Origin: Escallonia rubra
Lineage: Eukaryota; Streptophyta; Magnoliopsida; Escalloniales; Escalloniaceae
Direction of reading: 5' to 3'
Length of the DNA: 64,000 nucleotides
Assembly (NCBI GenBank): GCA_033065855.1
Contig: JAVXUO010000704.1
Span: 62,001-126,000, forward strand
The position numbers were made by a program, and so were the translations under genes. Shown here in pieces: positions 16,264 through 62,671 of the stretch (its first letter is position 1; the number at the start of each line of letters is the position of its first letter). The notes under the pieces were generated by a model, which was not told the origin of the DNA, did not search any database, and worked only from the letters and a program-made list of their open reading frames with translations.

Positions 16264-18757
16264 GATTGGCGCCATCCGTGGGACCGCCAGCCTAGCCGAT
16301 TGACTTCAAGATAATCGCGTTGTAATTTTTCTGATGATGAAGCTTGCCGCCAAAGCCACCGACGAGTCCTGCCTGACAGAGTTCCCCCTGGACAAACCGT
16401 ACGACAGGCACGGCCTGCTCCGCCATAATCAATGCCAGCGCAGCACCTCCCCAACAAGCTCTCCCACACAGTACCCCGATGTCACGTCGTCAACGACCTC
16501 ATGGCCAAGTGGCAAACAACAGTTCCGATGAGCAACCGCACAATTGCCAACACGGAACCAGTCAAACACCACAGTTCTCTAGATCCGCTCCGCAGCGGGT
16601 CCAACAACCTTTGGCCGCCACAGTCCCGATCGGAAAACACCGCCGGCAACAACGACAACCTGCAAGTGTCGTGCAACTACAAACAACATCTCAACATAAC
16701 AAAACAAAACAAAAAAGAGATCGCCGCCGCTGTACATCGGTGTCACACCGTCGCGGCCTCACTGCGTCGTACACCATAATCGGCAGTGGCGACGACTCCA
16801 AGCGACTGCCGCACCAGCCGACACCGACGCCGCAACACCGCGCCTCACTTCAGATCGTCTGTCGCCCCCTTTTCGTCAGCATCCTTCGCGTAGGCATTAG
16901 GCCGAAATCAAACCCATCCCGTAAATGCCGGTGCGCCGACAGCACCTCCCTCCGAGATCTATTTTGCCGGCCACGGCCACGGTGTTAACTCCTCCAACAA
17001 CCATGATAAATCACACAACCACAGCGGCGCAGCCGTATCAAAAAAATATGGGAGCAGCATCACCGCCGTAGTGGGCAATTAGGGGAGCACCGCCGCCATC
17101 TACCACCATCGTTGGTCACCCTTATTATCACGGCCCATGAAGAACTTCAATGTCAACCGCAGCCACCGTTATTCACTCGACGACGCCAAGCGTCAGTCAG
17201 CGCCAGAGGGATCCGGCCAACACAAAAATGCCACCATGAGAAGTGGTCGCCACCAGATCCACGAACCACCAAGAGAGCAGTAGCGCCGGAGCCACAACGA
17301 TGACATCTCATTGGCCGGTGCCGTCGATTCCTTCACCGCGACGCCATCCCATTCGCCGAAGTCGTAACTGCGCCGATCGTGGCCTCGCGACAGACGGCAC
17401 TGCAGATCTGCAACCCCACCCCACCGTTGTCGCCATCACGCCGGCGACCTTTCCCGACGTCGCGCAGTCCACCGCGAGCAAACGGCGACGGCAGAGCTTG
17501 GCCACCAGCTCCCTGCACTTAGATCAGTTGAAAGAAGGGGTAACCCCATCCAAGTCAGGTGAAATCCCTCTTTTTAGAATAAATCAACAGTAACCCCCAT
17601 AAAAGTGCATGTTTACATTTAGACCCAAAAGGTCCATTTATTTAATTTAGGCCACTCATTTTTTTAAAAGTATCAAACTTTTAACCTGAGAAGATGGTCT
17701 AATTAAACTTAAGACCCACAGAGTGTCTTTATATTTAAAATATGCCGCATAAACTCTTTAATAACGGCGTATGTTTTATCGCATATTTGTTGCTAAAAGT
17801 AAAGCACTATGACTTGCGGCGCTAGCAAGCCTTCCAAAGGCTACTCCCTATGCATTTCTATGTTAGCTAGACCTACGTTATTTTTTGGTCTAGCATTATG
17901 CAATTGTGTCAATTGACGCAAGCACGTCACATGTCGGGTCTTACCAACTGCTATGACTTTTTAAGCTCACTTGCGACATGCAGTGCAGCAAATTAGTCGC
18001 TTAACCAACAAAACCCTAATGTGGTCACGGTGTCTAAACACCGCTCTTAATTCTGTGTTAGCAACATAGTTGCACTTGTAAGCTTTATTGCTTTAAAAGT
18101 TATTTTTTCAGTCATGCACTTTTTTCTTTATGCAAGGGCTTAGACTGCACCTACAAGCATTAACAGTGCATATAAACCGCTTCATAATGCGAGGAACAAA
18201 TTCTCAACACCCCGCGACTTAAAAGTCACGCCTAGGGTTTTTTGCTGCAGTATCTTGCCGTCACGGCATTATATATCATTTCATGGTCATAGAGTGGCTC
18301 TATCTATGGCGTATTCATATCTTTGCTCATTGAGAAGCTGGTTCAACAATGATGGAAGCACACATGCTGCCACCACATCTAGTGAAATTAGAATTCATCG
18401 CCAGCCTCTACTAACAGCATCGCTAATATGTCTGTGACATCTTGCTCAGACGGACTCCATGCCCTCTAGCTTGATATGCTCGTCCAGTCAAGCAAGCAGA
18501 TACGGTCTTCTATATTGCTCCCACAAGTTCTTCTTGCGACCGACCCTACATATAGGTTGAAAAAGCCATCTTTATATATCTACGCCTTCTCAGAGGGGGG
18601 GGGGGGGTTCATATCTTATGATATCAGCAATATTACAGGCCTAATACCATGTACCCTCTCAGACAGGGGGCTTCATAGCAGCGGACATATTACAAGCTCA
18701 ATGCCCCGTGCCTTTTTATTTAGCGCCACAACAACAAGTACTCGTTGCTTCGACCGA

Positions 18758-19745
18758 AACCCTCGAGGGTATTTTTATTAGCTCCGCGCTCCATCTGCCC
18801 CTGAGGGCGCGTACGACAAGAACTCTTAAGTTCCGTCAAACCCTTGAAGGTATTTGCATGAGCTCCAAGCTCCATCCGCCCCCGAAGGCATGTACGACGA
18901 GAACTCTAAGTTCCGTCAGGGTATTTTTCGTGAGCTTTAAGCTTCATCCGCCCCCGGGGGCACGTACGACGAGAACCTTAAGTTTTGTTAAACCCTCGAG
19001 GGTATTTTCATGAGCTTTAAGCTCTGTTTCACCCCTGAGGGAGCGTAAGACGAGAACTTTAAGTTCTGTCAAACCCCTTTGGGTATTTACATGAGCTTCA
19101 AGCTCCATCCGCCCCCGAGGGCGTGTACGACGAGAACTTTAAGTTCTGTCAAACTTTTATGAGCTCGAGCTACATCCGTCCCCGAGGGCGCGTAAGATGA
19201 GAACCTTAAGTTCCGTCAAACCCTTTAGGGTATTTTCATGAGCTCGAGCTTCATCTGCCCCCGAGGGCGAGTAAGACGAGAACTTTAAGTTCCGTCAGAC
19301 CCTCGAGGGTATTTTACGAGTTTTGTGCTCATCCACCCCGATGGCGTGTACGACGAGAACTCTAAGTTCCGTCAAACCCTCGAGGGTATTTTCATGAGTT
19401 CTACGCTCTACCTGCCCCCGAGGGCGCGTACGACGAGAACTCCAAGTTCCGTCAGACCCCCGATGGTATTATCGTGAGCTTTGAGCTCCATTCGCCCCTG
19501 AAGGCGCATATGACGAGAACTCTTAAGTTCTGCCAAACCTTCCAGGGCATTTGCACGAGCTACGCGCTCCATCCATCCCTGAGGGTGCATACAACAAGAA
19601 CTCTTAAGTTTCGTCAAACCCTCGAGGGCATTTTCATGAGCTTTACGCTTCATCCGCCCCCGAGGGCGTGTACGAAGAGAACTCTTAAGTTCCGTCAAAC
19701 CCCCGAGGGTATTTACATGAGCTCCACACTCCATTAGCCCGCAAG
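18758..19745 (+). repeat. Tandem repeat, ~78-bp unit, about 13 copies
   Basis: Each unit reads roughly CCCTCGAGGG-TATTTTCATGAGC-TTTAAGCTCCATCCGCCCCCGAGGGCGCG-TACGACGAGAAC-TCTAAGTTCCGTCAAA. Unit starts fall near 18761, 18840, 18916, 18990, 19073, 19148, 19221, 19299, 19376, 19456, 19537, 19618 and 19700. It lies inside the LARD-like element, and tandem repeats are a known feature of the non-coding part of Tat-lineage Ty3 elements. Three small palindromes recur in most units. Confidence 0.9.
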
Positions 19746-19924
19746 GGCGCTTACCGGAACTCTACGTTCCACTAGCCCTCTAGGGCAGTCCCTCGAGGGA
19801 CAAACACCCCCAAGGGTGACAGGATAGATCTCGAGTTCTAACTGAACGTTTTAGCTACAGTTCTAACTCGTGAAACGGCAAAGCAGTATGTGGGACTTCA
19901 TCCCCCACTACAAGAAAACACGTT

Positions 19925-35411: not shown

Positions 35412-35998
35412 TGTAACAACCCAACATGGTGACCAGCCGGGAGTGACAGCTGAGGAAGATCCAACGAGGCCACAAGAAGAAGACCTGGGAACAAAACCAG
35501 CTCAGGGAATCCATGGCAGAGCTCCAGTCATAATTAAGATCAAGAAGAAAGCTTTGGCGCCATCTGGAACGACGCCGCTTAGCTCACAAGATCATTTAAG
35601 TGGAACGGCACCGTTTTGTCATTAAACTCAATCAAGGAAGACGGCACCGTTTAGCTCACAATTGGATTTGGTTTCCAAACGTTTTAGCGACTCTTTCATG
35701 CAATTTGAATAGAGCGCGTGTTCTTATTTTCTGTTTTGAATTCTGTTTTGAATTCGGTTACAACTTCCTTTAAAGGAAGGAAGGGAAAGGGGATGGGGTA
35801 TGAATGAACAAACTGAAAGCTCCCTCTCTCTTCTTACGCTCTATGAACTCTGGTTTCTCTTATTTTCTCAATAAAGTTTCTTGTCTTCTTCAATTCTCTA
35901 CCTCAAGTTCTCTGCAATTCTGTTAATTCAGTATCTCTTAATCGAATTCCACCATAACTGAAGCTATGGAAGCAGCGTCTCTTCTTGGATACGCTACA
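35412..35998 (+). repeat. 5' LTR of the Ty3 chromovirus
   Basis: It runs from TGTAACAACCCAACATGG to CTTGGATACGCTACA. An AATAAA motif in CTCAATAAAGTTTC lies in the R/U5 region. It is about 98% identical to the 3' copy. Confidence 0.94.
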
Positions 35999-38900
35999 AC
36001 TGGTATCAGAGCTCTTACTTGGGCCTGAGCTAGTTCATTTCCTGCGTAAAATCTGAAACCACCACATCTGCTGTGAATCAAATTGTCCTTGCTATTATGC
36101 CTCAATCGGTAAGGGGTACTCAAACGGCTGAAGCTGAGCTACAGGAGTTCCAAGGCACAATGGATACTAGGCTTGCGACAAACGACATACGGATGGATTC
36201 TATGGAAGCAACTATCGGAGATCTTCAAAGAGGACAAACAGTTCTGCTACAAGGTTTTACTGAACTTAAACTTGAAATTGCTAGCTTCATGGCACAGATT
36301 AATGCTAAGCTTGAGCCACCTCCACGAATTAACCTTGAGAAAGGAGACTCTAGCCATCAGAATCATCGCATGGAGTACACTAATAATCACAATATTCCTC
36401 CCCCAGAGTGTCCACCAAAGGACAACAGTTTGCCTAAATTTCCTAAACTAACATTCCCTAGGTTTGAGGGTATGAATCCTAAAGGATGGGTGCGGAAATG
36501 CGAACAATACTTCAAATTTTGTCCACTTCATGAAGACTACAAGGTCTCATATGCATCAGTTCATTTCGATGCACAAGCAGAATGCTGGTATGTAGCCTAC
36601 ATTAAACCCTTAGGCAGGGTAAGATGGGAACCGTTTGTTAAGGACATGTATGCAAGGTTCTCATTAACTAACGGAATCAGTGTGATGGGGGACTTTAACA
36701 GGCTTGTTCAGGTTGGCTCAGTTGATGAGTATTTCAATAATTTTGAGGCAATGAGAGCACAGGTGGTGCAAGAGTTTGATTATTTGGATGAGAATTATTT
36801 TTGTATGAGTTTCGTTGGTGGACTCAAGCCTGAGATCAGGAGTAGGGTGGAGCAATTTGCGGTAGACACCCTATCCAAGGCTATTTACATAGCCAGAAGA
36901 GAAGAGGTGGCCATACAGAATCTGTTCAAAACTCTCAGAACCTTGCAGCCAACCCTCATATCTTCAAATCAAAGTCATTCCTTCACCAGGTTTAATTACA
37001 CACCTCATGGACCTGGTACCACAACTTTTCATTCCAAAAACCAAATACTGAAACCCACACCCTTACAGGCCCTTCCCTTCAAGCCTCACCCAATCCTTAA
37101 CTACAACACACCACAAAGAGGCCTACTACCTACACCACCTAGACCCCCTCCCAAAACCAATCAGTTGACTACAGAAGAGCATTAAAGGAGAATGGCACAA
37201 GGGTTGTGTTTTAAATGTGGAGCTAAATTTGACAATGGGCATAGAAATGTTTGTCCTATGAGGACAATTGCTATGATTATACCTGATGAGGAAGAAGTCA
37301 CATAAATCTCTGAGGAATTAACTGTGACAGGAACTGAGGATTGCCTCGATGAACCCCCACCTGAACCAAATTTTGAACCTGAAATCAGTGCCCATGCCTT
37401 AGCTGGCAACCAAACTCATCACACCATAAGGATACCAAGTCAAGTGAAAGAAAAAGAGTTCAGCATTCTGATTGACACTGGGTCAACAGATAATTTTTTT
37501 GATCCCCATTCAGCTGAGAAGTTGGGTTGTATTTTGGAAGGTACTACACCTTTAACTGTTGCAGTAGCTGATGGAACTAGATTAAACACTGATACCATAT
37601 GCAAAAATTTCACTTGGGTAATGGGGTCTCAACAGTTTGTTACAAACATGAGGATCCTGCCCCTAGGGGGTTGTGACTGTGTCTTAGGGATGCAGTGGTT
37701 GAGACAGTTTGGAAATGTGAATTTCAACTTCAACTCCAATCAAATTTCTTTCAAGCACCAAGGCAAGGTAATTTTATTGAGAGGAGGAGAGTTTAAGGGA
37801 ACTACTCTCAAGATGATCACAGCCCCAGCCATGAACAAATTGTTAACTGGAGATGCAGGGACACTTTTTGGTCAGGTGTTTGCTGTAAGTATTCCTACAG
37901 TGGGTGACACCTTTTTCCTTAGAGGTGCAGGAGCTGTTGACAGAATACTCTGATGTGTTTGAAGAACCAAATGGGCTTCCACCCCACAGAAGTCATGATC
38001 ATCCTATCAATCTTATGGAAGGTGCCAAACCTGTCAGCTTAAGACCTTACAGGGTCTCATATGTCCAGAAGGTGAGATTGAGAATATCATCCATGAGTTG
38101 ATGCAGGCAGGTATTATCAAACCAAGCAAATCACCATTTGCATCACCTATTCTTCTTGTTAAGAAAAAAGATGGAAGTTGGAGAATGTGTGTTGACTACA
38201 GACAGTTAAACAAGTTGACAATTAAGGATAAATATCCTATTCCTGTAATTGATGACTTGTTAGATGAATTACAAGGAGCCACCATATTTACCAAGCTAGA
38301 CCTAAGGAGTGGTTACCATCAAATTAGGCTGGTAGACAATGACACACACAAAACTGCCTTCAAAACTCACTCAGGACACTATGAATTTCTAGTGATGCCA
38401 TTTGGGCTCACTAATGCTCCAGCCACCTTTCAAAGCCTGATGAACACCATATTCCAACCTTACTTGAGAAGGTTTGTTCTAGTCTTCTTTGATGACATCT
38501 TGGTGTACAACCAAGGTATGCAGGATCATATTGCACATCTCCAGTTTGTGTTGCAGCTGCTGAGGCAACACTCTCTCTATACTAAGAAGAGTAAGTGCAC
38601 ATTTGGCCAGATGCAAGTGGAGTACCTTGGCCATATAGTTAATGCCCAAGGTGTGGCAGCTGATATTAACAAGGTGGAAGCTATGTTGAACTGGCCCACA
38701 CCCAGAAATGTCAAAGACCTGAGAGGTTTCTTGGGCTTAACTGGTTACTACAGAAAGTTTGTCAAAGGTTATGGTGTGATCAGTAAACCTTTGACAAACC
38801 TGCTTAAAAAGGATGCATACCATTGGGATGAGCTCACATCAAAGGCCTTCAGTGCACCGAAATAAGCTATGGCAACTACCCCTGTACTGGCTCTACCCAA

Positions 38901-40765
38901 TTTTACATTACCATTTGAAGTTAAAACGGATGCCTGTGATATTGGTATTGGAGCAGTACTCATGCAACATAATAGACCTTTGGCATACATCAGCAAGGGT
39001 CTAGGTACCAAGAGCATTGGACTCTCTACCTATGAGAAGGAGCTGTTGGCTTTGGTACATGCTGTGACAAAGTGGAGTCCCTACCTCAGCCACAACCATT
39101 TTGTGGTTAGGACTGACCACAGCAGCTTGAAATACCTCTTGGGCCAAAGGGTCACCTCCCTGTTGCAGCAGAAACTATTGTCAAAACTTCTGGGTTTTGA
39201 CTTTGAAGTACATTACAAGAAGGGTGAAGACAATGTGGTAGCTGATGCACTATCACGGATTCCACAGCAACATCATGGGAAGTGCTATGCAGTGACTACC
39301 ATTATTCCCTTATGGCAGCAAGAGCTGCAATCTAGTCTGGAATCTGATGAGACAGCACAAAAAGCTATATAGGAATTGGTCATAAATCCTATGGCCACTT
39401 CATTCTATTCCTATCAATGAGGCCTCCTACATTCAAAGGCAAGGTGTATGTTGGTAATGAAGGATCACTCAGAGCACAAATCTTACAGGAGCTACACACT
39501 TCAAGCACTGGGGGTCACTCAGGTATCCAAAATACTTACAGAAGAGCTAGTATGTTTTTCTATTGGCCTAACATGAAGATGCAGGTAACCAAATTGGTTA
39601 GTGAATGCCATGCCTGTCAACAACACAAACATGAAAATGTGCCTTATCCTGGCCTCCTGCAACCCTTGGAAATTCCTGGTCAACTCTGGACACACATCAC
39701 TATGGACTTTGTAGAAGGCTTACCCAAGTCCCAAGGAAAGGATAATGTACTTGTGGTGGTAGACAGGCTTAGCAAGTATGCACACTTCATCAGCTTGGCA
39801 CATCTCTTCACAGCAGATGTGGTAGCTCACCAATTTTTGGACAATGTGTTCAAATTACATGGAATGCCTACTTCCATTACAAGTGATCGAGACAAGGTTT
39901 TCTTATCCACCTTCTGGACAAAGCTGTTCAAATTGTTGGGAACTCAGTTGGCCTACAGCTCTGCTTACCATCCAGAAACTGATGGATAGACTGAGAGAGT
40001 CAACAAGTGCCTAGAAAACTACCTCAGATGTATGTGCAGTGATCGACCTCACAACTGGGCCAAGTGGTTAACCATGGCAGAACATTGGTACAATACCAGT
40101 TATCATGCCACTATCAAGATGACTCATTTTGAAGCTGTGTATGGTTACAAGTCCAGGGCTCTCAACTTAGCCACACCCGAAACCACCAACATTGCGGATT
40201 TGGACAACTACCTGAAGGAAAGGAGTAAGGTGCTGAATTTACTCAAAGATAATCTGACACAGGCACAAGCTCAGATGCAACAATACGCGAATCTTCATCG
40301 TACTGAGCGAGAGTTCACAGCGGGAGACTGGGTTTACTTGCGGTTGCAACCATACAAACAGACCTCACTAGCTCTCAAAAGGAATATGAAACTCTCACCT
40401 AAATTTTTTGGGCCATATCAAGTAATTCAGAAAATTGGCAAGGTTGCCTACAAGCTCAAGCTTCCCGCCACAGCTAAAATCCATCTGGTGTTCCATGTCT
40501 CACTCTTGAAGAGGAAGTTAGGCTATCAACTTGTTCCTTCCACTCAGTTACCTTATCAAGGTCAAGAAGGGCAGTTTTTAATCGAGCCAGTAGCTGTTAT
40601 GGCCCGGCGATTAATTAAACGAAGTAATCAGCCTATAATCCAGGTTTTAGTCAAGTGGTCTAATGCAAGCCAAGGCGAGGAGACCTGGGAAGACTGGGAG
40701 GTCATTAAGGGTAGGTTCCCAGATTTCGATCCTTGGGGATAAGGATCATTTGAAGGGGACGGGAA

Positions 40766-41351
40766 TGTAACAACCCAACATGGTGACCAGCCGGGACTGA
40801 CAGCTGAGGAAGATCCAACGAGGCCACAAGAAGAAGACCTGGGAACAAAACCAGCTCAGGGAATCCATGGCAGAGCTCCAGTCATAATTAAGATCAAGAA
40901 GAAAGCTTTGGCACCATCTGGAACAACGCCGCTTAGCTCACAAGATCATTTAAGTGGAACGACACCGTTTGGTCATTGAACTCAATCAAGGAAGACGGCA
41001 CCATTTAGCTCACAATTGGATTTGGGTTCCAAACGTTTTAGCGACTTTTTCATGCAATTTGAATAGAGCGCATGTTCTTATTTTCTGTTTTGAATTCTGT
41101 TTTGAATTCGGTTACAACTTTCTTTAAAGGAAGGAAGGGAAAGGGGATGGGGTATGAATGAACAAACTGAAAGCTCCCTCTCTCTTCTTACGCTCTATGA
41201 ACTCTGTTTCTCTTATTTTCTCAATAAAGTTTCTTGTCTTCTTCAATTCTCTACCTCAAGTTCTCTGCAATTCTGTTAATTCCGTATCTCTTAATCGAAT
41301 TCCACCATAACTGAAGCTATGGAAGCAGCGTCTCTTCTTGGATACGCTACA
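40766..41351 (+). repeat. 3' LTR of the Ty3 chromovirus
   Basis: It has the same ends as the 5' LTR. It is preceded by the purine tract TTGAAGGGGACGGGAA and followed by the AATAG target duplication. Confidence 0.94.
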
Positions 41352-42371
41352 AATAGGCATGCATTCCACTTGCAGCCCATACACAACCCATGGCACACAG
41401 CTTCTGCCCAACAGTATTACCCCTCTATCCCTTTTCGTTTTCCTTTCTCCCCTCATGGCCATGGCAGCCTCCAAACTAATTCATGGCAAAAATCCCCCTC
41501 ACAGTTGTTTTCTCCCTAAGCAGCCCCTCGCGACTGCTTCTTCCCGTGGCAACCATCACCCCAACGGCCACCATTTCGTCCCTTAAACGCACCCAAACAG
41601 GTACACAGACACACCAGAATTCTACATGAATCCAAGACCCACGGCAGCCCCTTTACAGTTACTATAAATCAGGAAACGATTTAGAAGGAAAAGGCTAGAA
41701 ACTTACCGAAAAAGTCTCGCCGTAAAACCCTTCCTCATCCTCTTCCTTTGTTCTCTCTCTCGATCTGCTTCACTCTCCTCAGACGTTTTCAGAAAAGGGG
41801 ATGAAAAATGACGGCTGCCTCACAAGTATATCTATATATAAAACCCTAAATTGGACATTTACCAAAACAATTTCTAAATTTTCGTTAGTTATTCAAATTT
41901 AACCCGAAATTTCTTATTACTTACGAAAAGGCCCAACATAGTTATTTATGAAAGATTAATGTACTAAAAGAATTCAATAGGTTGTTACTTAAACCCCGCT
42001 ACACTATTCGGCGCTAAAGTCCCAAACAAAAAATACATCGATGTTAACTAAAAGGGTAAATTACACACGGCACCCCTGAGGTTTGCCTAAACTACACACG
42101 GACCCCTCTATCTTTTTTAATTATACTAAACTACACTTTTTTATTTTTCCGTTCAAAGAATTAACAGAAGTAAGAAAATGACGCTAATACCCCTGAGAAA
42201 CAAGTTAATTTACCCCTCCCTCTCTCTCTCTCTCACGAAGCCAAGCAAGCAGCGCCGCTAGCGCCCCCCGCCCCATCACGGTCACCGCCACGGCAGCTCC
42301 TCCGAGAAAAAATCAGTGACATACCGATTAGGGATGGACTTGGTGTAGACGGTGTTTGTGTCAGATCCGTC

Positions 42372-42564
42372 AGGGCCCAGGCTGATGCCGCCTCCATCAC
42401 CGTCGAGCAGACCTGCTCCATCTTCGAGCAGAAGCACGTCTCCCTCTCTTCCGAGTTCGCCGCAGATCCAATCACAATACTCACGGCTTGCCTCCTCACT
42501 CGAACAACGCCTCGCCGAGCTCAGCCAGCTCCAGGCCGACAAGCACCAAGGCCATCTACAATCG
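42372..42564 (+). pseudogene. Captured exon of the nuclear-pore protein gene NUA (TPR homologue)
   Basis: NUA/TPR is a long coiled-coil protein of the nuclear basket, involved in mRNA export and SUMO homeostasis. The fragment reads SVRAQADAASITVEQTCSIF and EQKHVSLSSEFAA, then in another frame SLEQRLAELSQLQADKHQ..LHLQS-like sequence. Arabidopsis NUA, as I recall it, has DSVRAKADAASITAEQTCS and DRLAELAQSQAQKHQLHLQS near residue 40-100. The exon ends at a GTAATC donor near 42565. A frame change in the middle breaks it. Nearly identical phrases ACGGTGT(T/C)TGTGTCA(G/A)ATCC lie just before and after it (about 42349 and 42579). Confidence 0.85.
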
Positions 42565-42643
42565 GTAATCCATGACGACGGTGTCTGTGTCAAATCCGGT
42601 TCAGATCCTTGCCTTCCAGTTCAGATCCGATTAATCACCGAAG

Positions 42644-42820
42644 ATGTTCGAGGTGGACGAGGAGTCCAAGCAGGAGTTTTACACCGTGGTTCACGACGGT
42701 CCGGCGAGTGCCCCATCGTCTCCTCCCAGAGCCGCCGGCAAAAAGAACAGCCTCGTGATTGTTGATCACTGGTGGAAATTGGGAGAGGCCAATAAAGGAG
42801 AGATTAGGTCTTCTTCTTGA
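42644..42820 (+). pseudogene. Second, unidentified gene-like fragment in the Pack-MULE
   Basis: This short GC-rich open frame of 58 codons starts MFEVDEESKQEFYTVVHDGP and continues with a Ser/Pro/Ala linker, KKNSLVIVDHWWKL and a Glu/Lys tail. Composition and position beside the NUA exon suggest another captured coding piece, but I do not recognise its source. It could also be chance. Confidence 0.4.
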
Positions 42821-43421
42821 TTCAGACGCCTCCTTTGCACCATAATGTTCTTTGTCAGCCATTGACGCCATTTGCCCAATCGCCTTATCTGTATCTCTAG
42901 ATCAGGGTGGGCATAGTTAGGAGAGTCTCAGAGAAGAGGCGAAGTGTCCACCGCCGATGTGCGTATGTGTGTGCTTGATGGGTAGTGCGGGTTTGGTGTA
43001 AGATGGTGTTTGGATAGGCGGTAGTTGTCGGTAGTGGTTGTCAGTGTGTATGAGAAATTAGGAGAATCAGCCTTTGGCAGCAGTGGTGAGGCGTCGGCGG
43101 CAGTGGCGGAGCATCGGCGGGAGTCGCTAAGCATTGGGTTGTAAAGAAGAAGAAGAAGAGGGCATTTTGGGGATATCATAATAATTGAAAGGTGCCCTAA
43201 CTTTTCTTAACGGTTCTTTAACGGAACTGGACTTTATGTAAGACAGTTACAAACCACAGGGAGCGGAGAGTAATTAAAAAAGATAGGGGGGTCCGTGTGT
43301 AGTTTAGGCAAACCTCAGGGGTGCCGTGTGTAATTTACCCTAACTAAAATTTCGTCGCTCGTAAATATATATTCGCCGCTAAAATTTGTAATTAAGTCCG
43401 AAAAAGTATCCGGGTGTTACA

Positions 43422-47895: not shown

Positions 47896-50800
47896 TAGCT
47901 AAGGGTTTTACTCAGAGAGAAGGTATTGATTACAATGAAATATTTTTGCCTGTAGTAAAACATACTTCGATAAGAGTGTTGCTTTCTATAGTTGCTCTAG
48001 AGATGTCAATGGGCCGGCCCAGCCCGAGCCCAATGGGCCTCCAAAGAAACAGGCAGGGGTCGGGCCTGATGACTAGGAAATGGGTCGGGCCGGGCCTGGA
48101 AATATGGACATATGGGTGCAGTCCAAGCCCTGGCTCTAGGCCCAATATTTAGGGCCGGGCCCGGGCCCAATTATTTTTTTTTGGTTCCCAACTTCTTGTT
48201 AGTTATTTGCGTCGATGGCCAACAAGAATACATCAAATTAATTGGTTAAGATTGATACATGTTAATTTTGTGTAATATTGACAAGCCTTTTTTGGCCTAC
48301 TAACATTATAATTTATAAGTAGCATTTTTCGGAAGTTTGGTAAATAGAAAATGACAATTACATCTATCAAATTGCTTAATACAGTAGTTCTTTAAATTTT
48401 CGCAAATGTTTGCACGGCATTTGGCTTTTCTTTCCTTTTTTTAAATATAGTAGCATCTTCTTCTCTCTTTTCTTTTTCTTTTTTTTTCAATAAACATCTG
48501 TTGAAGTCATATGCACAAACTTTTTACCTTATGTGTATCCAAGCAAGTAGTAGCAACGCTAAATTGCCCTAGAGACTATTTCTACTATTTGAAAGAGACT
48601 ATTTCTACTATTTGATACTTTACTTCTTCTTTCGTTGCTGAAAGAATAACAATTATTTTTTAAAGTGATTGAAAACTCATAAAAAAGTGAAAATAATATT
48701 ATTATTTTACTATCTATTTTGTTATTATTATTTAATAATATAAATACTAGCTTTTTATATGTATTTTAATAGTTATTTTTTTACGCACGGTGCCAATACT
48801 AATTTATATGTAAGAGGGTAGAATTAGTCGGTTTGGTATTTATTGACAAATAAGTTCGTCCCATCCAAGACCGCTAAGGCCTCTTCAAAGAGGCTCATGA
48901 TTTCTCACGGTTCGATTGTAATCTTTGTAATCTAATTCTTGTTTTACGTCAAACATATCTTTGATTATTGCACCAAGGAAGAACGATAAACATAATTCAT
49001 GTTCAGATTCATTGCTCATTCGATCATCGTTGGACACGCACACATATTTAATAATGTGTGCATACAATAATACTGGGGCAAAAGAGGGTCTGTGTGTAGG
49101 GCCAAAAAAAAGGCCAGAAATAGGGCCAACCTTAGGCCAAAATAGGGCCAGAAATAGGGCCAACCTTAGGGCCAAAAGGGGGCCAGTTTTCGGGCCAAAA
49201 GAGGGCCGAGCCAAAAATGGGCCATTTTAGGGTCGGCCCGAGCCCGGGCCTGTTTCTCAAATAATTGAGCCTGGCCCTGGCCCAAGCCCTAAAGGTTAGG
49301 GCCAGTTCGGGCCAAAAAAATGGCCCGGGCCAGCTCGCAGGCTGCCCGGCCCTTTTGACATCTCTAGGTTGCTCTACATGACTTAGAGCTAGAACAACTG
49401 GATGTCAAGACAACATTTCTACACGGTGAGTTGAAATTCATGCGTCAGCTAGAGGGATTCATGATCCAGGATAAGGAAGATCATGTTTGCTTGTTGGAGA
49501 AATCCTTGTATAAATTAAAGTAATCTCCAAGGCAGTGGTATAAGCGGTTTGACATTTTTATGGCAGAGAAAGGTTATGTCAGGAATGCTTATGACAATTG
49601 TGTGTATCACCAGAGGCTCGTTTATATTTCTCATATATACTTGTTGTTGTATGTTGATGACATGTTTGCAAAATCGATGTTAGATGTCAACGGTTTGAAA
49701 GAACATTTGAAAAGGGAATTTGAGATGAAAGACTTGAGTGCAGCAAAGAGGATATTAGGGATGGAGATTTAGAGGGATCGACCAGCAGGAATTTTGTACT
49801 TGTCCCAGAAAAATTACACGGGCAAGTACTACAACGCTTTGGTATGGAAAACTGTAAACCTGTGACTACTCCTTTGACGGCACACTTGAAGCTTTCCGCA
49901 CCTGATTCCCCACAGACCCAGGATAAGGTGGAGCAGATGGCATGTGTTCCATATGCTAGTGCAGTAGGCAGTCTCATGTATGCTATGGTTTGTACGAGGC
50001 CCGGTATTTTTCGTGCGGTCAGTGTGGTTAGCATGTACATGGGTAATCCTGGGAAAGCTCATTGGCAGGCAGTGAAGTGGACACTTCGATACCTGAAAGG
50101 TACCGCGAATACTGGTTTAGTCTACCATCGAGGTAGTGATGTGAATGGTAGAGTTGTTGGATATGTGGATTCATACTACGCTGAAGATTTGGATAGGAGA
50201 AGATATTTGATAGGATATATCATCACTTTTTTGAGTTGTGTGATCAATTGGTAGGCTACTCTACAGAGTATTGTTGCCTTGTCTACTACAGAAGCTGAGT
50301 ACATAACAACGATTGAAGCAGTGAAGGAAGCTATTTGGTTGAAGGGCTTGGTTGGTGATTTGGGGTTCAAGCAAGATTCTAGTATTGTTTACTGCAACAG
50401 CCAAAGTGCCATACATCTGACCAAAAATCAGATGTTCCATGAGCGAACCAAACACATTGATGTCAAGTTTCATTTTATTCAGGATGTGGGTTCTCATGAT
50501 ACTGTTATGGTAGAGAAGATTTCCATAGATGAAAATCCAGCAGACATGATGACAAAGCATATCCCAGAGATCAAGTTTAACCATTGCTTAGATTTGATCG
50601 GTATCAGCAGTATTTGAGGTGCAGCCCTAGGGACAGGTGTGGTAGCAGCAGATGATATTTTCAGGTTATTTTTGGCTTGTTTTATTCAAGCCAAGGTGGA
50701 GATTTGTGATAACGTGTCCCGGATAAAAAACCCGGAATGTGTGGGTGTCCCACATCGGTTATTTAAAGAAGGTTACAACTTGGCCCTAAGTATATAAGTC

Positions 50801-52581: not shown

Positions 52582-53173
52582 TCACTCAAAATATTTCATG
52601 TGCACACCAATGGCATGCAAATAAGCACCATTTCTACCGTGAAAACCAACCAATTTTCCTTTAGATGGAGTAGAAACAAAATATGTGCCTCTCATCCCAT
52701 TCCCAAAAGGGCCATATTTTATTTTGGTTGTGTAAAACGTTATACTTGTTATACCCTCCAATCCGCTGTCTCCTTCAATCGGCCCAAAAAATCCTGCAAT
52801 CCCAACAAAAATCTGATCCGTGCCAGTCAGATTGATCTGCCAATCAAAGGCAGATAGCTGTGTCAGTGGTGAAATGGAGAATGAGAAATTAGGCCCCAAA
52901 CTTTGGATTCACTAAACATGACTATCGACGGTAAATTCTTACCTTTTCTACTGTATCACCAGTACATGGACTGCCATGCATGTCTGACAAAACATGCTTC
53001 CCGTTTCTATTTACATATTCAAACTGGATTCCGCGTACCCCTCTTTTCGATTCGTTCAGCGTCACATAGACTTGTTTGACATCCAAGAAAACCCCATCAT
53101 CCCAAGATTGACCACCGGAAGTACCCCAGGGTCCTACCTCCCGTGGCATATCGGCTATCATCACATCATTCCA
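52582..53173 (-). CDS. Jacalin-related lectin, fifth (C-terminal) domain, two exons
   Basis: Exon 52943-53173 encodes WNDVMIADMP then REVGPWGTSGGQSWDDG, the GPWGG-type opening of a jacalin fold. It ends at a GTAAGA donor. Exon 52582-52836 (after GGCAG) encodes INLTGTDQIFVGIAG, TSITFYT, YGPFG and KLVGFHGRNGAYLHAIGVHM, then TGA. Both exons are in phase 0. Jacalin domains bind mannose or galactose glycans, and here the usual Asp of G-x-x-L-D is His (GAYLH). Because the first exon has no strong start of its own and its phase fits a GTTAAA donor at 58244, I take these as the last exons of the gene at 58245-62671. The intron would then be about 5 kb and hold a Pack-MULE. A separate short gene starting at MIADMP is possible. 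Confidence 0.8.
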
Positions 53174-53890: not shown

Positions 53891-54924
53891 TCCATAGACC
53901 CAAAAGAAATAACTTTTGAGATATAAAATGAAAACGTGATCTAATAATTAATTTAAATTTTGATAGAATCGTAATTTTTATTTCTAAATAATTTTGCAGA
54001 GTACTCTTAACCTAACGTTTCAAGCTAATAGACTTAGTTTTAAAATGAATCAAATTGGGCCACTAAAAGAACTTAATAATAATATAGTCTTGACAAGTTA
54101 CTTTGAAACTGTTACAAATTAAGTATTAAAAATTTCTTACTACCTGCAATTATAGTTTTAGCAGAAGTAGATTTTTTTCCCATAAGATCTAAATCTCTTT
54201 TTTTTTTCCTTCTTGAAATGTGGTATTCATTGATACACCTTTTGTAACTTTTTAAAATATTTTATTAACTTACTCAAGCTTGACTCGGGATCCTGAGTTA
54301 TAATAATTAATAACTGAGGCGAGAAATGCAATCATGACACCTTATTGCATTGTGTTTTTAATATAGTAAGAGTTATAAAAACTAATGTTAAACCCATTAA
54401 TATTACTAAAAATCTCCAAACTTTATTTTGAATGGGGTCCTTAATTTTACAATTAATTAAATTAACAAATATAGTAGACATTTAAATAATTAGCCTTATG
54501 CAATTCAAAAATCAATTCAAAATATTTAAAATTCTCTAACCAATATAGTAATATATATTTGACTTTATTGGAATACTATATATAGAAAAAGCTCTCTAAC
54601 ATAAATTATTAACCTGTAAAGAAAATTACTTAAGAGATTTAATGAGAAAAATTAGGTTTATTTTCAAATGGGTCAAATACACGTAGGTACCCTGGAACTA
54701 TCACAAAATCTCAATTAAGGGTCCCAAAGTTTAATTTTTACACATAAGGGCCTATAACTCCAAATTTGCAATAAATAAGGACTTCCGTCCACTTTCTTAA
54801 CGATTGAGACTTTTCTGTCAGGGGCATTTTTGGGTTTCCATATTTGGGTGTTTTTCTCTTCTTCTTCAAAATTTCATCTTTGCCTCCACCACCACCACTG
54901 CCGCCACCCACCACCGCCGCCAGC

Positions 54925-55480
54925 CTTTCGTCCCACAAGACACCTCCCCACCGACCCAACCCCCATCCCCTTCACCTCCGCTTCCCAAGCTCCCATTCTC
55001 AACCTCCCTCTCCACCCCCACCAACGAGACCCCCTTCTTTCCTTCCTTCCCCTCCCCACCACCACCAACGGCCTCCCCTTCCTCCACATCCTTCTCGGCC
55101 AACATTTCCTCCCTCTCCCTCCTCTAGTCCCCCAAACCCAAACCCACCTCTTCCAAACTCATCGCAACTGTCGTCACGGCCGTACTCGCTGCCATCAGCG
55201 TCGTCTCCATCATCATCTTCCTCCACATCCACAAACGAAGAAAGGAATAGACTTTTAGCGACCAGAAAACCCACAGATCCGACACCAGCAGTAGAATCTT
55301 CAGCAATGGAGCTGCTATTGCCAACGTAGCACCAAAGCCACCACGAAGGCCCTCTCAGGCCGGCTCTGAATTCCTCTACCTTGGCACTCTTGTTAACTCC
55401 CACAGTGGCATCGGCGGTAATAGCCAACCTGCCAACGTCCCACCACCACCCGCGCCGTCGATTTCTGCTCCTCTGCCTGC
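54925..55480 (+). pseudogene. Captured N-terminal part of a class I (membrane) formin gene
   Basis: Plant class I formins nucleate actin at the plasma membrane. The fragment shows a Pro/Ser-rich extracellular-type region (PFVPQDTSPPTQPPSPSPPLP, PFFPSFPSPPPP), a Lys-bounded hydrophobic segment (about 55155-55225, KLIATVVTAVLAAISVV on to HIHKRRK) and the juxtamembrane signature SEFLYLGTLVNSHSG followed by a PPPPAPS stretch. The order Pro-rich, membrane span, SEFLYLGT is characteristic of the family. The catalytic FH2 domain is absent. Stops after SSLSLL (near 55126) and after KRRKE (near 55248) show it is broken. It reads toward the U-box fragment. Confidence 0.88.
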
Positions 55481-55562
55481 TGGATTGACGGCCGGTCAAA
55501 GGTGTGGCCGGATGAGAGAATAACTGGGTCCGTCATTATCTCTACTGAGATTGGAATTTTTT
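55465..55562 (-). pseudogene. Captured U-box E3 ligase fragment
   Basis: The minus strand reads KIPISVEIMTDPVILSSGHT then FDRPSIQQ, the first half of a U-box (consensus CPIS.E.M.DPVI..SGHTFDR.SI..W). U-box proteins recruit E2 enzymes for ubiquitylation. The first Cys-like position is Ile-Pro here, and the second half (CP.T...) is missing because the sequence runs into the formin fragment coming from the other side. The junction lies near 55465-55490. The best relatives are probably PUB8/PUB9-like single U-box proteins with ARM repeats, but the fragment is short. Confidence 0.82.
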
Positions 55563-55849
55563 TTCTGCATGCGTAATAGTTTTCTTTCCCTCTGTTTCTG
55601 TGGATCTTTAGGCTGGATGGGGATGAGAGAGGTGAAATTTTGATGATGAAGAAGAAGAGAAAAACACCCAAATATGGAAACCCAAAAATGCCCCTGACGG
55701 AAAAGCCTCAATCGTTAATAAAGTGGACGGAAGTCCTTATTTATTGCAAATTTGGAGTTACAGGCCCTTATGTGTAAAAATTAAACTTTGGGACCCTTAA
55801 TTGAGACTTTGTGGTAGTTTCAGGGTACCTACGTGTATTTGACCCTTTT

Positions 55850-57584
55850 TCAAATTCATATTTAAGTTTTCTTTAAATTCAAATATGAATCTAACCTGAT
55901 AACTATATTGATTAAAAATTTTGGTAAATAATTTCCTTACTTTAAAGTTTTGCGGTATCCTATTTAGTGGCATTGGTTAAATGTAAAAATATCATAATAT
56001 GCAGATTCTATATGAGATACATTAAAAAAATAGTGTAAATTTAAAACCTTAATTATGTAAGCTTTTCTTAAATTCAACTAATTTTATGTTGAAAAAGTTT
56101 TGAACTAATTTTTTTCTATGGTATTTTTATTGTGAGTAATTAACTATTATGCATTCTAAATTCTGCATTAGCAATATGCGATTTATGATTTTAATTATGT
56201 TAACTTTTATAATTTTGAATATAATTGCATATAAAATCTAAAAAGACATTAGTTATTGTGTGATGAATGTAGACTAAAACTTGGATTGAAATCCTTATTA
56301 TATCTAAAGATAAATTTTACTTAGTAAGCATGCTTATTGTATACTTTGTAAAATGTTGTTTAAATTTTGTTCAGCAATTTCCTTATTACGAGGTTTTCAT
56401 GTTGGTTAAAATTTTTAAACTTTATATAATTACTTCATGCACTGATTACTATTTTCTCTGCTTCTAAAAATGTCACACCATCCTTACTTTATTAGTTGTG
56501 TTGATTAACTTTTATAACATGCTATAAACAAATATATGGACCAAAATTTTCTCTATCTAAATTAAACTAATATATAACTAATGTTAAGGACAACTCATTC
56601 AAAGGTACAATTTTTTTTTTTAAAAGATACGTAGAAAATAATAAAAATATCTTATGCAATAGCAAATTGATCTCAATATGTTCTCCGCATAATTTTATCA
56701 GTAGAATTTACTTATTCTTTTTTGTGTACTAAGTAAGCTTTTAATTTTTGTACATCTATATAGTTACCCAATCAGAATTAGCAGATATGCACGAGGACAT
56801 TGCTTATTGATATTTGACCAGAAAGGTTAATTTATTTTATTACAAGAAAGTTCAAGCCAAAATTAAAGTAACTATCTTTGATAAAATATATAACCATAAA
56901 ATTATAAAATTGTGTAAGATATTTTATTATGCATTTCAAGACTACTAAGATAAATTATTGTTAATAAACCGTTTCGTGCTTGGCACAGGATTCTGGGCTA
57001 GTAGATGAAATACTGGTGCAAATAATCTGGATATACACAACATACAACAAGATATGAACAAAAACAATCATCAAAAGGAACCAGGATAATTGATTCAACC
57101 TCTGGGCATGGAGCTGTCGGACAATTTGGAGTGTTTTTTTTAAATTAAATAATTTGATTTATCGTATTTTAATGTTATTAGAAAGATGCGTTAGTGGCTT
57201 GTGTTACTGAGCCAAATAAATGTGTTAGTGGTAAGTAAAGCCAAAATTGAAAATGTCTAAGTAGACAAAATTTCAATGTTATTACCATATCTTCACATGG
57301 TAAAAGGAGGGACAATGACTTGGCAATATTCTCTCAATTTGCCTATACTACGTGTATTATTAGACGTCCAATACTTTAGAGATTGAGTAATTTTCGATTC
57401 TGTTATCACTTTCCTTCATTTATCACAAAAAGTTAGCAATTCAAAATGTTCAGTATGGGTTTTACAATTTAAATGTAAACCAAAAATTGATTTGAAAAAA
57501 TCATGACGTTTTGAATTCCTAAATTATTTCTTTTATCCTAAACAGATATTAAAGTTCTAATCTCACACCAAAGCCTTCCATGCC

Positions 57585-58220: not shown

Positions 58221-61200
58221 TTAAAGAAGCCAAGATGATTTAACCTCTGAGATTTTAGTCGGAGGATCCGATGCTGGCTTTGTGTAGATGCCTATAGAGG
58301 CAAGTTGTTTTCCGCTACCAATACTCCCATGAAAGCCAACTATAACTCGACCGTCAGCTCGAGATGAGAAAACTTGAACATTGTTACCGTTGTAGCCACC
58401 ATAGGGTCCCCGTTCTTTTATATTTGTGTAAAAGGACAGCGATGTTATTGTAATCTGATTAACGTAGCTGTTGGATGAATACTTCCCGCTGATGCCCGTT
58501 AGATACTCAGACGAGTTTGGAAGGTCGATCTGTACAGGTGGAGAGAATGAATTCAAAGTTGCATTGAAAAGCACCAACTTGGAGATGATAGTCTGATACG
58601 AATTAAACATCAAATAACATTTTTATGATCTCACCTTTTCGGAATCACCGCCTACATCACCGAAGTTTGCCGAATACTCACCTTTCTCGGTTCCGAACAT
58701 GATGGAGCAAATATAGTACTGGTTACGGCGTAAAGTTATATGCGTAATCTTACTGTCGGGTAGGAAACTCCAAGTTGTTCCAGGACCTCCCCATGGTCCT
58801 AAAGATGTAGATCCTTCAGCTTCTTCCTGTAAGCAAGCTACAAACGATCAGCCAACAAATGGATTTATGGTTGCACCAATTAACGGAAACCAAGTCCTAC
58901 ATACATTATTATAAGAGCCAAAGACTAGGACTACAACGACAGTAGCACGGGAGATTTTTCGAAAAAACAAAAAGCACTGTCAAACTACACATAACTAAGC
59001 TCTTGCACCTAGTCAGCGGAAGTTGGAGAATGGAAGTAATTTGATACGTCAAAGTTGAAATCTCAGGGTGCCAAGTGTGTGGGGGGTTTGGCAGTAATTA
59101 ATCCGTTTCAAAAAGAAATGAAATATGCATTTTACCTTTGGGATCGGAGGATCGATGACAGATTTTGGCTTCGTATAAATGCCTATAGATGCAAGATGTT
59201 TGCCACTGCCAACAGTTCCATGAAATCCAACTATAACACGATCTTTTGTACGACATGAGAAAGCTTGAACACTGCTGCCTTCATAGCCACCAATGGCTTC
59301 CCACTCCTTTATATTTGTGTAAAAACTTAGAGATCTGATCGTGATCTGATTAACGTAGCTGTTGGACGAGTATTTCCCGTTGATGCCCGTCAGATATTCA
59401 GAAGAATTCACAAGGTCAACCTACGTCATGTGAGAAAAAATGAGAAATATTTAAACGTATTGCACGTGTGAATATGTCATTTGCACTGATCATGAAAAGC
59501 TACTTTGGTTGAGTACTAGACACAGTCGTGAACTAGTGCGGAACCTTACCTTTTCAGGGTTGCCCTCGTCGCTGCCAAACTTTGCAGAAAACTCACCTTT
59601 CTCCGTCTTGAACATGATAGAGCAAATGAAATACTGATTACGGTATACAATTATCTGCCGAATGTTGCTTTTGGGGATGTAACTCCAACAGGTTCCTGGA
59701 CCTCCCCATGGTCCAAGGGAGGTACTTCCATCAAGGTCTACTACCTGCATGAAGAGTATAAATCTAAACATCCTAAGCGGCTTGCTTCTTTTTGATATCG
59801 TCATATCTATACCGTATATAAGTCGGATGACCCTTTTAGTGTAACATCTATTTGCTGTTACCTAATTACCAATCTAGATTGATGACACTTGACATTATGA
59901 GAAAATTATTAAAAATGACAAAAAACAAAAACATTAAACGGTCAATACTTTCCCTAAAGATGTTTTTGGGTCTTACATTTAAAAATACTCATACACCATG
60001 CTTGATTTTTTTAACAAATTTTAATTTAAAAACTTCTCGCGCATCACGTGTGCCACAAAAAATAGTTTTTTAAGATGCAAAGGAATTTTCAACCATAATT
60101 AACTTCCTTTAACCTTGATGTTACTACATTATGAGGCGGTATAGTTGGTAGTGAAAAAATGATTTCACTATAAGGATGCTCTATAGATGTTTAAATGAAA
60201 AAAACGATTATGCAAAAAGCATCTCCACGTGCTTATGCCACTATTCAGATCTCTAATTTTTATTGGTTAAAATACATAAACACTCGTTGTTGCATAAAAC
60301 TGCTAAACTGATTTTCAGAAGAAAAAAAAACACTGTCAAACTACACATAACTAAGCTCTTGCACCTAGTCAAAATTTTGAAGAATGGAAGTAATTTGATA
60401 CGTCAAAGTTGAAATCTCAGGGTGCCAAGTGTGTTGGGGTTTAGCAGTAATTAATCCGTTCAAAAAGAAATAAAATATGCATTTGACCTTTGGGATTGGG
60501 ATCGGAGGATAGACAACAGATTTTGGCTTCGTATAAATGCCTATAGATGCAAGATGTTTGCCACTGCCAACAGTTCCATGAAATCCAACTATAACATGAT
60601 CTTCTGCACGAGATGAGAAAGCTTGAACATTGCTGCCTTCATAGCCACCAATGGCTTCCCACTCCTTTATATTTGTGTAAAACCTTAGAGATCTGATGCT
60701 GATCTGATTAACATAGCTGTTGGACGAGTATTTCCCGCTGATGCCCGTCAGATATTCAGAAGAATTCCCAAGGTCAACCTACGTCAAGTGAAGAAAATAT
60801 GAGACATATTTAAACGTATTGCATGTGTGAATATGTCATTTGCACTGATCATGAAACACTACTTTGGGTGAGTAGTAGATACAGTCGTTAACTAGTGTGG
60901 AACCTTACCTTTTCAGGATTTCCGTCGTCGCTGCCAAACTTTGCAGAAAACTCACCTTTCTCTGTCTTGAACATGATAGAGCAAATGAAATATTGATTAC
61001 GGTATACAATTATTTTCCGAATGTTGCATTTGGGGATGTAACTCCAACTGGTTCCTGGACCTCCCCATGGTCCATGGGAGGTACTTCCATCGAGGTCTAC
61101 TACCTGCATGACGAGTATAAATTGAAACACCCTAAGAGAGTTGTTGGTGTGTGATATTCTTGTATTTTTTTAATAAGGAGACTCCATCGTTTGGTTCTCA

Positions 61201-62671
61201 CCCAGTACTGTTTTTTGTAAGTCAATTCCCAGTAAAACTGATCGATACTACATAAATATAAGCCGATGGCGATAGATTTTTTGCTACATCGACTAGCAAA
61301 ACATTAGTGACCTTAAAAACTGGCACTTTGCTATAAACTTGCCAGAAAAGAAGTTGTTTCACCTGTGGAGCTTTTGGTGGACAAGTAGAGGATTTCGGTC
61401 TCGTATAGAAGCCTATTGATGCAAGTTGTTTGCCACTGCCTACAGACCCATGAAAGCCAACTATATCGCGACCATCTGCTCTAGATGAGAAAACTTGAAC
61501 GTTGCTACCTTCGTAGCCTCCATAAGGTCCCCGTTCGTTTGTGTTTGTGTAGAAAGACAATGATCTAATTGTAATTTGGTTTACATAGTTATTTGAGGAG
61601 TACTTGCCGCCAATACCCGTGAGGTATTGCGAGGGATGCTCGAGGTCAATCTACACAAAGCAACATAGCACATGTAAGGGTATTGGAACATGTAAATCAG
61701 TAAATGCATAAAACGAGTTTAATTCACATTGCGGTAGTGAACTTCACTTGTAGAAGGCTTGATCCACTATATTGATAGTTTTGTAATCTCCATGTTTCAT
61801 TAGATTTTTCGAGCTTGAACGTCAACCTTCTTATGAAACATTATAGTTTGTGTAATGGTGAGTAGGTGTGCCGGCGTGTGTGATTGTGCGTGTGTGTGAT
61901 TGTGTCTGTGTTTGTGTGTGTGTGGTATTATGCGTGGCTGTGTGATTCTATATGCTTGAGATTATGGGTTCGTCTGTGTCACTGGCTCTGTGTGCGGGTG
62001 CGAGTGACTGCGCGCATGCGCTTGTTTGTGCTTGCGAGTGTCGGCAGGTAATCTGGGGAACGAAAAGAGAAGGTTTTTTCAGTAAAATTACAAAAAAAAT
62101 CTTCAGGACCTCTATATTTCATAACTTGTAACAATATTTGCAATGATGGTGCAAATGGATTCTTAATTTTTATGTATTTGATTCATATGTTTGGGCGTAA
62201 ATCCATGGTCTCTTTCCTGGAAAATTCATCGATTTCAAGTTTCTGAGATTTAACAAAAGACTTGAAGTAATACGGCAATCTAACTTACTATATGGGATGG
62301 AGCTCACCTTTTGAGGTTCACCACCGTCACCGCCGAACTTTGCCGAACACTCGCCTTTTTCGGTCCTGAACATGATGGAGCAGATGAAGTACTGGTTACG
62401 ATATATAGTAATTTGCGTAATCTTGCTATTCGGAATGTAACTCCAATTGGTTCCTGGACCTCCCCATGGTCCAGAGGATGTAAGTCCTCCCGCATTTCCC
62501 TGCAAAAATTATGAAATTCGCTAATGTAAATCCTTCGCAATTTCCGTGCATCGTACGTGATTGGCCAGTGTACATTCTGGAGGAAATTGTGTGCAAAAAA
62601 CAAAACAAGACAGACTGCATGCAGTACTTGCTACATGTATAAGAGAAACCAAGTATTATTACCCCTGTCAT
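58221..62671 (-). CDS. Multi-domain jacalin-related lectin, domains 1-4
   Basis: Exons by eye: 62663-62671 (MTG), 62308-62499, 61363-61650, 60909-61103, 60488-60778, 59550-59744, 59136-59420, 58635-58826 and 58245-58529 (or to the stop at 58221). All have GT/AG borders, are multiples of three and keep phase 0. Each jacalin domain uses two exons. The first carries GPWGGPGT.WS, ITIYRNQYFICSIMF and EFSAKFG. The second carries SEYLTGI.GKYSSNSYVNQI, SLSFYTNI and VIVGFHG..GSGKQLASIGIYTKP. The protein is about 650 residues alone, or 805 with domain 5. No signal peptide is evident with this start. An upstream in-frame ATG (62767) would add a 32-residue leader. Jacalin lectins are cytosolic or nuclear, defence-linked glycan binders. 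In all four domains the G-x-x-L-D Asp is Ala (GKQLA/GKHLA). Confidence 0.87.
58970..61158 (-). repeat. Local duplication of one lectin domain with introns
   Basis: The segments about 58970-59800 and 60330-61158 align almost base for base. They include an intron stretch (CACTGTCAAACTACACATAA, GGGTGCCAAGTGTGTGGGG-type), both exons of a domain, and the downstream intron as far as ATGA.GAGTATAAA. The spacing is about 1360 bases. Domains 2 and 3 of the lectin therefore arose by a recent tandem duplication. Confidence 0.88.

Follow-up and report, generated by a model that had tools for sequence, protein, structure and literature searches.

A Pack-MULE-type element with U-box and formin-like gene fragments in a likely jacalin-lectin intron of Escallonia rubra

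Pack-MULEs are MULEs that carry one or more host gene fragments and no transposase. In the relevant passages of PMC3310237, MULE terminal inverted repeats (TIRs) are typically 100-500 bp long and target-site duplications (TSDs) 9-11 bp, the Pack-MULEs of tomato most often measure 1000-1200 bp, and a screen for elements with multiple TIRs tolerated up to two mismatches in the TSD. The parental sequences of MULE-derived genes are described as GC-rich in parts of PMC4858842, where about 5-10% of the MULE-derived putative genes of an Oryza set have at least two parents, and Pack-TYPE elements with sequence from several loci, often in maize, appear in a portion of PMC8903248. Sections of PMC13317346 present maize Pack-MULEs, together with Helitrons and Sireviruses, as siRNA reservoirs that act on donor genes, and the alternative splicing of gene fragments carried by Pack-CACTA elements is on record in an excerpt of PMC1947982.

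The locus described here lies in a 64-kb window, the whole stretch of 64,000 nucleotides of Escallonia rubra DNA that was analysed, and all positions refer to it. Very probably, the stretch 54670-55845 is a non-autonomous MULE of Pack-MULE type with formin-like and U-box 5' cargo, now a decaying passenger that most likely sits in a lectin intron. It offers a clean and structurally complete case of probable two-gene capture, in which both captured 5' ends face the termini.

Boundaries and cargo of the element

The element and its parts are as follows.

54661-54669, no strand: left target-site duplication, TTTTCAAAT
54670-55845: whole element, 1,176 bp
54670-54879, plus strand: left TIR, 199 nt ungapped at 96.5% identity to the right TIR, extended to 54879
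54885-55478, plus strand: captured fragment 1, a formin-like N-terminal frame by composition, hydrophobic segment and motif resemblance
55477-55629, minus strand: captured fragment 2, which PF04564 and PDB matches identify as the 5' portion of a U-box (PUB) gene; the outer limit of the fragment, 55629, is set by the start of the TIR
55630-55845, minus strand: right TIR, by alignment with the left TIR
55847-55855, no strand: right target-site duplication, TTTTCAAAT, with a single T between it and the element end

The element starts with GGGTCAAATACACG and ends with the inverse of the same sequence. Its termini (54670-54868 against 55845-55647) align over 199 nt without a gap at 96.5% identity, with seven mismatches of which six are transitions, and beyond a short indel the match continues to 54879/55630, so that the full alignment has 216 columns and 93.5% identity; this length falls within the 100-500 bp typical of MULE TIRs. 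Plant substitution rates lie between 7e-9 and 1.3e-8 per site per year, at which the 3.5% divergence of the arms would correspond to some 1.4-2.6 million years, a figure that is only rough because the arms can diverge before insertion.

The sequences that border the element, ATTTTCAAAT and TTTTTCAAAT, match at nine of ten positions when compared without offset, and TTTTCAAAT forms an exact 9-bp duplication only with an offset of one base, the extra T standing on the right side; as an exact 9 with offset or as 9/10, the duplication agrees with the 9-11 bp of MULEs. Among 200,000 random pairs of pieces drawn from the AT-rich local flanks, a 9/10 match arose in 0.0585%, and an exact match of nine with offsets allowed arose in 0.099%.

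The minus-strand cargo is a U-box fragment. At 35.2 bits (Pfam cut-off 21.4; E 1.4e-8), the ORF 55393-55707 shows a match to PF04564, the U-box family, over profile positions 8-37 of 73; the second half of the domain is missing. When the same ORF was searched against PDB, with a total of 25 sequences at E values up to 10, U-box chains matched its residues 50-77 (55477-55560); the best four, which we take to be plant U-box proteins, have E values of 9.1e-5 to 1.3e-3. A U-box truncated in this way should not function as a ligase, because only half of the domain remains.

The plus-strand frame 54885-55478 comprises 198 codons, is rich in proline (26% before the membrane segment), and is interrupted by in-frame TAG stops at 55125 and 55248. 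The proline-rich part is followed by the hydrophobic segment TVVTAVLAAISVVSIIIFL, then by HIHKRRK, SEFLYLGTLVNS and PPPPAP; a transmembrane helix is predicted at about 55167-55223, after which come a basic stretch and EFLYLGTLV. The hydrophobic 19-mer has a mean of 2.73, which was equalled in none of 2,000 codon shuffles. From this order of features and from the words EFLYLGTLV and ANISSL, the fragment is presumably the N-terminus of a class I plant formin, a name that is a good lead drawn only from motif resemblance. A text search of the literature for the two words found neither in a formin paper, and one of them only in an unrelated cancer-vaccine context; a search for "Pack-MULEs" and "formin" as whole words, which texts with "formins" or singular-only spellings would escape, returned no joint mention. 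The Pfam scan of all 12 element ORFs of at least 60 aa gave matches for the U-box ORF only, with neither a transposase family nor an FH2 domain among the 12. Because of the missing FH2 match, the class I formin label is withheld and fragment 1 is termed a formin-like N-terminal fragment.

The two captured pieces adjoin at about 55,477, and the N-terminal end of each points to a terminus. GC content is 58% in the formin-like piece, 46% in the U-box piece and 23% in the flanks, a contrast in line with the GC-rich parents of MULE-derived genes. As to two parents, the U-box is identified by Pfam, and the formin-like piece by motif resemblance and the transmembrane feature only. With a U-box fragment above the cut-off and no transposase match, the element combines host gene sequence with the lack of a transposase, and it is an ordinary Pack-MULE, probably with two parents. 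Counting against this reading are the duplication that is exact only when offset, a formin name that no database match backs, the termini that no transposase match ties to the Mutator superfamily, and the lack of a second family copy in the window, where blastn recovered only the element's own termini. A search of viral contigs with an exact 34-base terminus pattern found no match, which is the expected outcome for DNA from a plant.

In the reading of the bare letters that preceded this analysis (the sequence-only reading), the element had been described as a Pack-MULE with inverted termini of about 210 bp, a flanking duplication of 9-10 bp, and a plus-strand formin N-terminal piece converging on a minus-strand U-box piece near 55480. 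The termini, the duplication and the convergent layout were recovered almost as described, the U-box piece lies above the curated cut-off of PF04564, and the Pack-MULE structure agrees with the TIRs, the TSD, the U-box fragment and the lack of a transposase match. For the formin piece, the proline-rich frame with its transmembrane segment and EFLYLGTLV stands, and the name itself comes only from motif resemblance.

A second Mutator-like element is found about 11 kb away, at 42054-43340 (1,287 bp, 51% GC), with 70-bp termini at 98.6% identity and an exact 9-bp duplication, TAACTAAAA. Gene-like pieces occur in its interior, which also has stretches at about 61% GC, and we suspect that one of these pieces resembles the start of a nuclear-pore-anchor protein; two ORFs from this interior had no Pfam match, and against PDB one gave a match at E 0.42 and the other none. 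The pattern GGGTMAAWWACAC, devised after the fact from the ends of both elements, has four matches in the window, which are exactly those four ends.

The flanking lectin exons and the placement of the element

Jacalin-lectin exons lie on both sides of the element, on the minus strand.

58245-62499, minus strand: jacalin-lectin exons A1-D2, eight in all and each in phase 0, which make up four domains; read in the lectin orientation, they lie upstream of the element
52582-53173, minus strand: jacalin-lectin exons E1 and E2, a fifth, diverged domain with a terminal stop codon; read in the lectin orientation, they lie downstream of the element

Between 62499 and 52582 the minus strand carries five jacalin domains (A-E) of two exons each, and all ten exons are in phase 0, have a length divisible by three and keep an open frame. 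The six lectin ORFs tested with Pfam, which represent domains A, D and E, all match PF01419, and of these five exceed the cut-off and 58623-58847 narrowly misses it (20.7 against 22); domains B and C were assigned by their 70-90% identity to A and D. By PF01419, the flanking gene is thus a jacalin-related lectin. A PDB search with E2 alone gave 33 sequences at E <=0.001, the best of which are three-domain lectins of Parkia, and a tblastn search with the five domains over the window found no extra jacalin pieces.

The element lies in the gap between D2 and E1, which is likely a lectin intron because all ten lectin exons are in phase 0. It may also be, more tentatively, that the element stands between two lectin genes, with D ending at a stop of its own and E starting independently as a gene of one domain. 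The size of the gap favours separate genes, since it measures 5,071 bp and the eight other introns 105-743 bp, as does the divergence of E, which is 26-31% identical to A-D whereas A-D share 70-90% with one another. The splice sites can be read in both directions: the donor at the end of D2 (GTNAAA) aligns in register with those that follow A2, B2 and C2, and its phase fits E1, D2 and E1 both being in phase 0 like the other exons, but in the leave-one-out scores this donor ranks last among nine and the E1 acceptor last but one among ten, under rough weights derived from the ten lectin exons only. At the beginning of E1, an in-frame ATG 12 bases past the putative acceptor would suit a separate start, and a possible linker, WNDVMIADMPRE, ahead of the domain would suit a continuous lectin.

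The history of the element is most likely the following. The element or an ancestor would have taken up a copy of the 5' portion of a formin-like gene beside one terminus and a copy of the corresponding portion of a U-box gene beside the other, a transposase encoded elsewhere would have mobilised it, and its insertion at the present site would have made the 9-bp duplication. It would now be a decaying passenger, most likely in a large lectin intron, and would be removed by splicing along with that intron. The two stops in 198 codons and the U-box that is only half present argue for a non-functional cargo.

Several other features were observed in the window. At 49524-49772, on the strand opposite the lectin and some 2.8 kb past the last lectin exon, lies part of a copia-type reverse transcriptase (PF07727); the two ORFs adjoining it, up to 50617, had no Pfam match. 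The region 35412-41352 is a probable LTR retrotransposon, with direct repeats at 35412-35711/40766-41065 (97%) and 35853-35999/41206-41352 (99%) and long plus-strand ORFs in its interior, one of them with an aspartyl protease (PF08284). GC-rich tandem repeats spaced by about 80 bp, whose copies are 61-83% identical to reference copies, occupy 18757-19766, and an open frame of 482 codons at 14024-15469 matches UDP-glycosyltransferases (PF00201). A transposase-associated domain (PF13963) at 1914-2732 on the minus strand and a tnp2 transposase (PF02992) at 5999-6772 on the plus strand look like pieces of CACTA-type transposons.

Predicted hairpin and candidate exon

A transcript of the lectin strand would contain the U-box piece in sense and the formin-like piece in antisense. 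The fold predicted for the minus-strand RNA joins both termini in one long stem, with an MFE of -591.8 kcal/mol that stands without a shuffle control at that length, and leaves the formin-like antisense in the loop, outside the stem. A lectin pre-mRNA spanning the element could be diced at this terminal hairpin. If the hairpin formed by the termini of about 200 nt were indeed diced to small RNAs, the antisense in the loop could damp the parental formin gene, a course of events that the predicted stem and the siRNA reservoirs described for maize in PMC13317346 would accommodate, but which is unlikely: the formin-like piece is placed in the loop rather than in the stem, and the scheme presupposes the intron placement, itself only likely. 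It is highly improbable that, in an intronic Pack-MULE with two parents, each lectin pre-mRNA would bear the hairpin and lectin transcription would feed small RNAs onto the formin gene; if true, such a feed would connect a defence-type lectin with actin control.

The best open, in-frame exon candidate within the element is 55472-55380 on the minus strand, 93 nt with an acceptor and a donor and a combined score of 13.0, which would encode antisense formin-like sequence and not the U-box. With weights trained on the lectin exons themselves, the nine real ones that have both sites reach 17.2-27.4, a comparison that favours the real exons; under leave-one-out weights their range is 7.5-23.5 and four of the nine fall below the candidate, so that the score alone is not decisive. 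Because an equally good candidate occurs in 36 of 300 base-shuffled and 54 of 300 dinucleotide-shuffled elements, the candidate is at the level expected by chance, a chimeric exon is not supported, and it is very doubtful that the element supplies one to the lectin message.

Where the sequence-only reading had concerned placement and transcripts, its strand logic was upheld and its chimeric exon did not rise above chance; the other product that it proposed, an antisense RNA against a formin gene, would be possible. Its placement of the element in a lectin intron agrees with the phase-0 jacalin exons on both sides and is weakened by the poor splice sites and the diverged E. The element would gain in importance only with the discovery of small RNAs or of a chimeric transcript.

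Comparison with known systems

Muk (Mu killer) of maize is a rearranged element, an inverted-repeat silencing locus that silences MuDR. The element at 54670-55845 resembles it as a Mutator-derived inverted repeat that could in principle give hairpin RNA; unlike Muk, with its silencing of MuDR, it is known here from sequence alone. Pack-CACTA elements, such as Tgm-Express of soybean, are likewise DNA transposons that shuffle gene fragments. CACTA elements have CACTA termini and 3-bp duplications, whereas the Escallonia element has GGGTC termini and a 9-bp duplication.

The closest likeness is with the Pack-MULEs of rice and tomato. Although the terminal family and the gene pair of 54670-55845 have not been matched to a published element, it shares with them, as far as the relevant parts of PMC3310237, PMC8903248 and PMC4858842 describe them, the long TIRs, a TSD of 9-11 bp, a length of about 1.1 kb, the lack of a transposase, and the capture of gene fragments, sometimes from more than one locus. 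To these elements, which are well known in plants, it adds an instance and not a principle.
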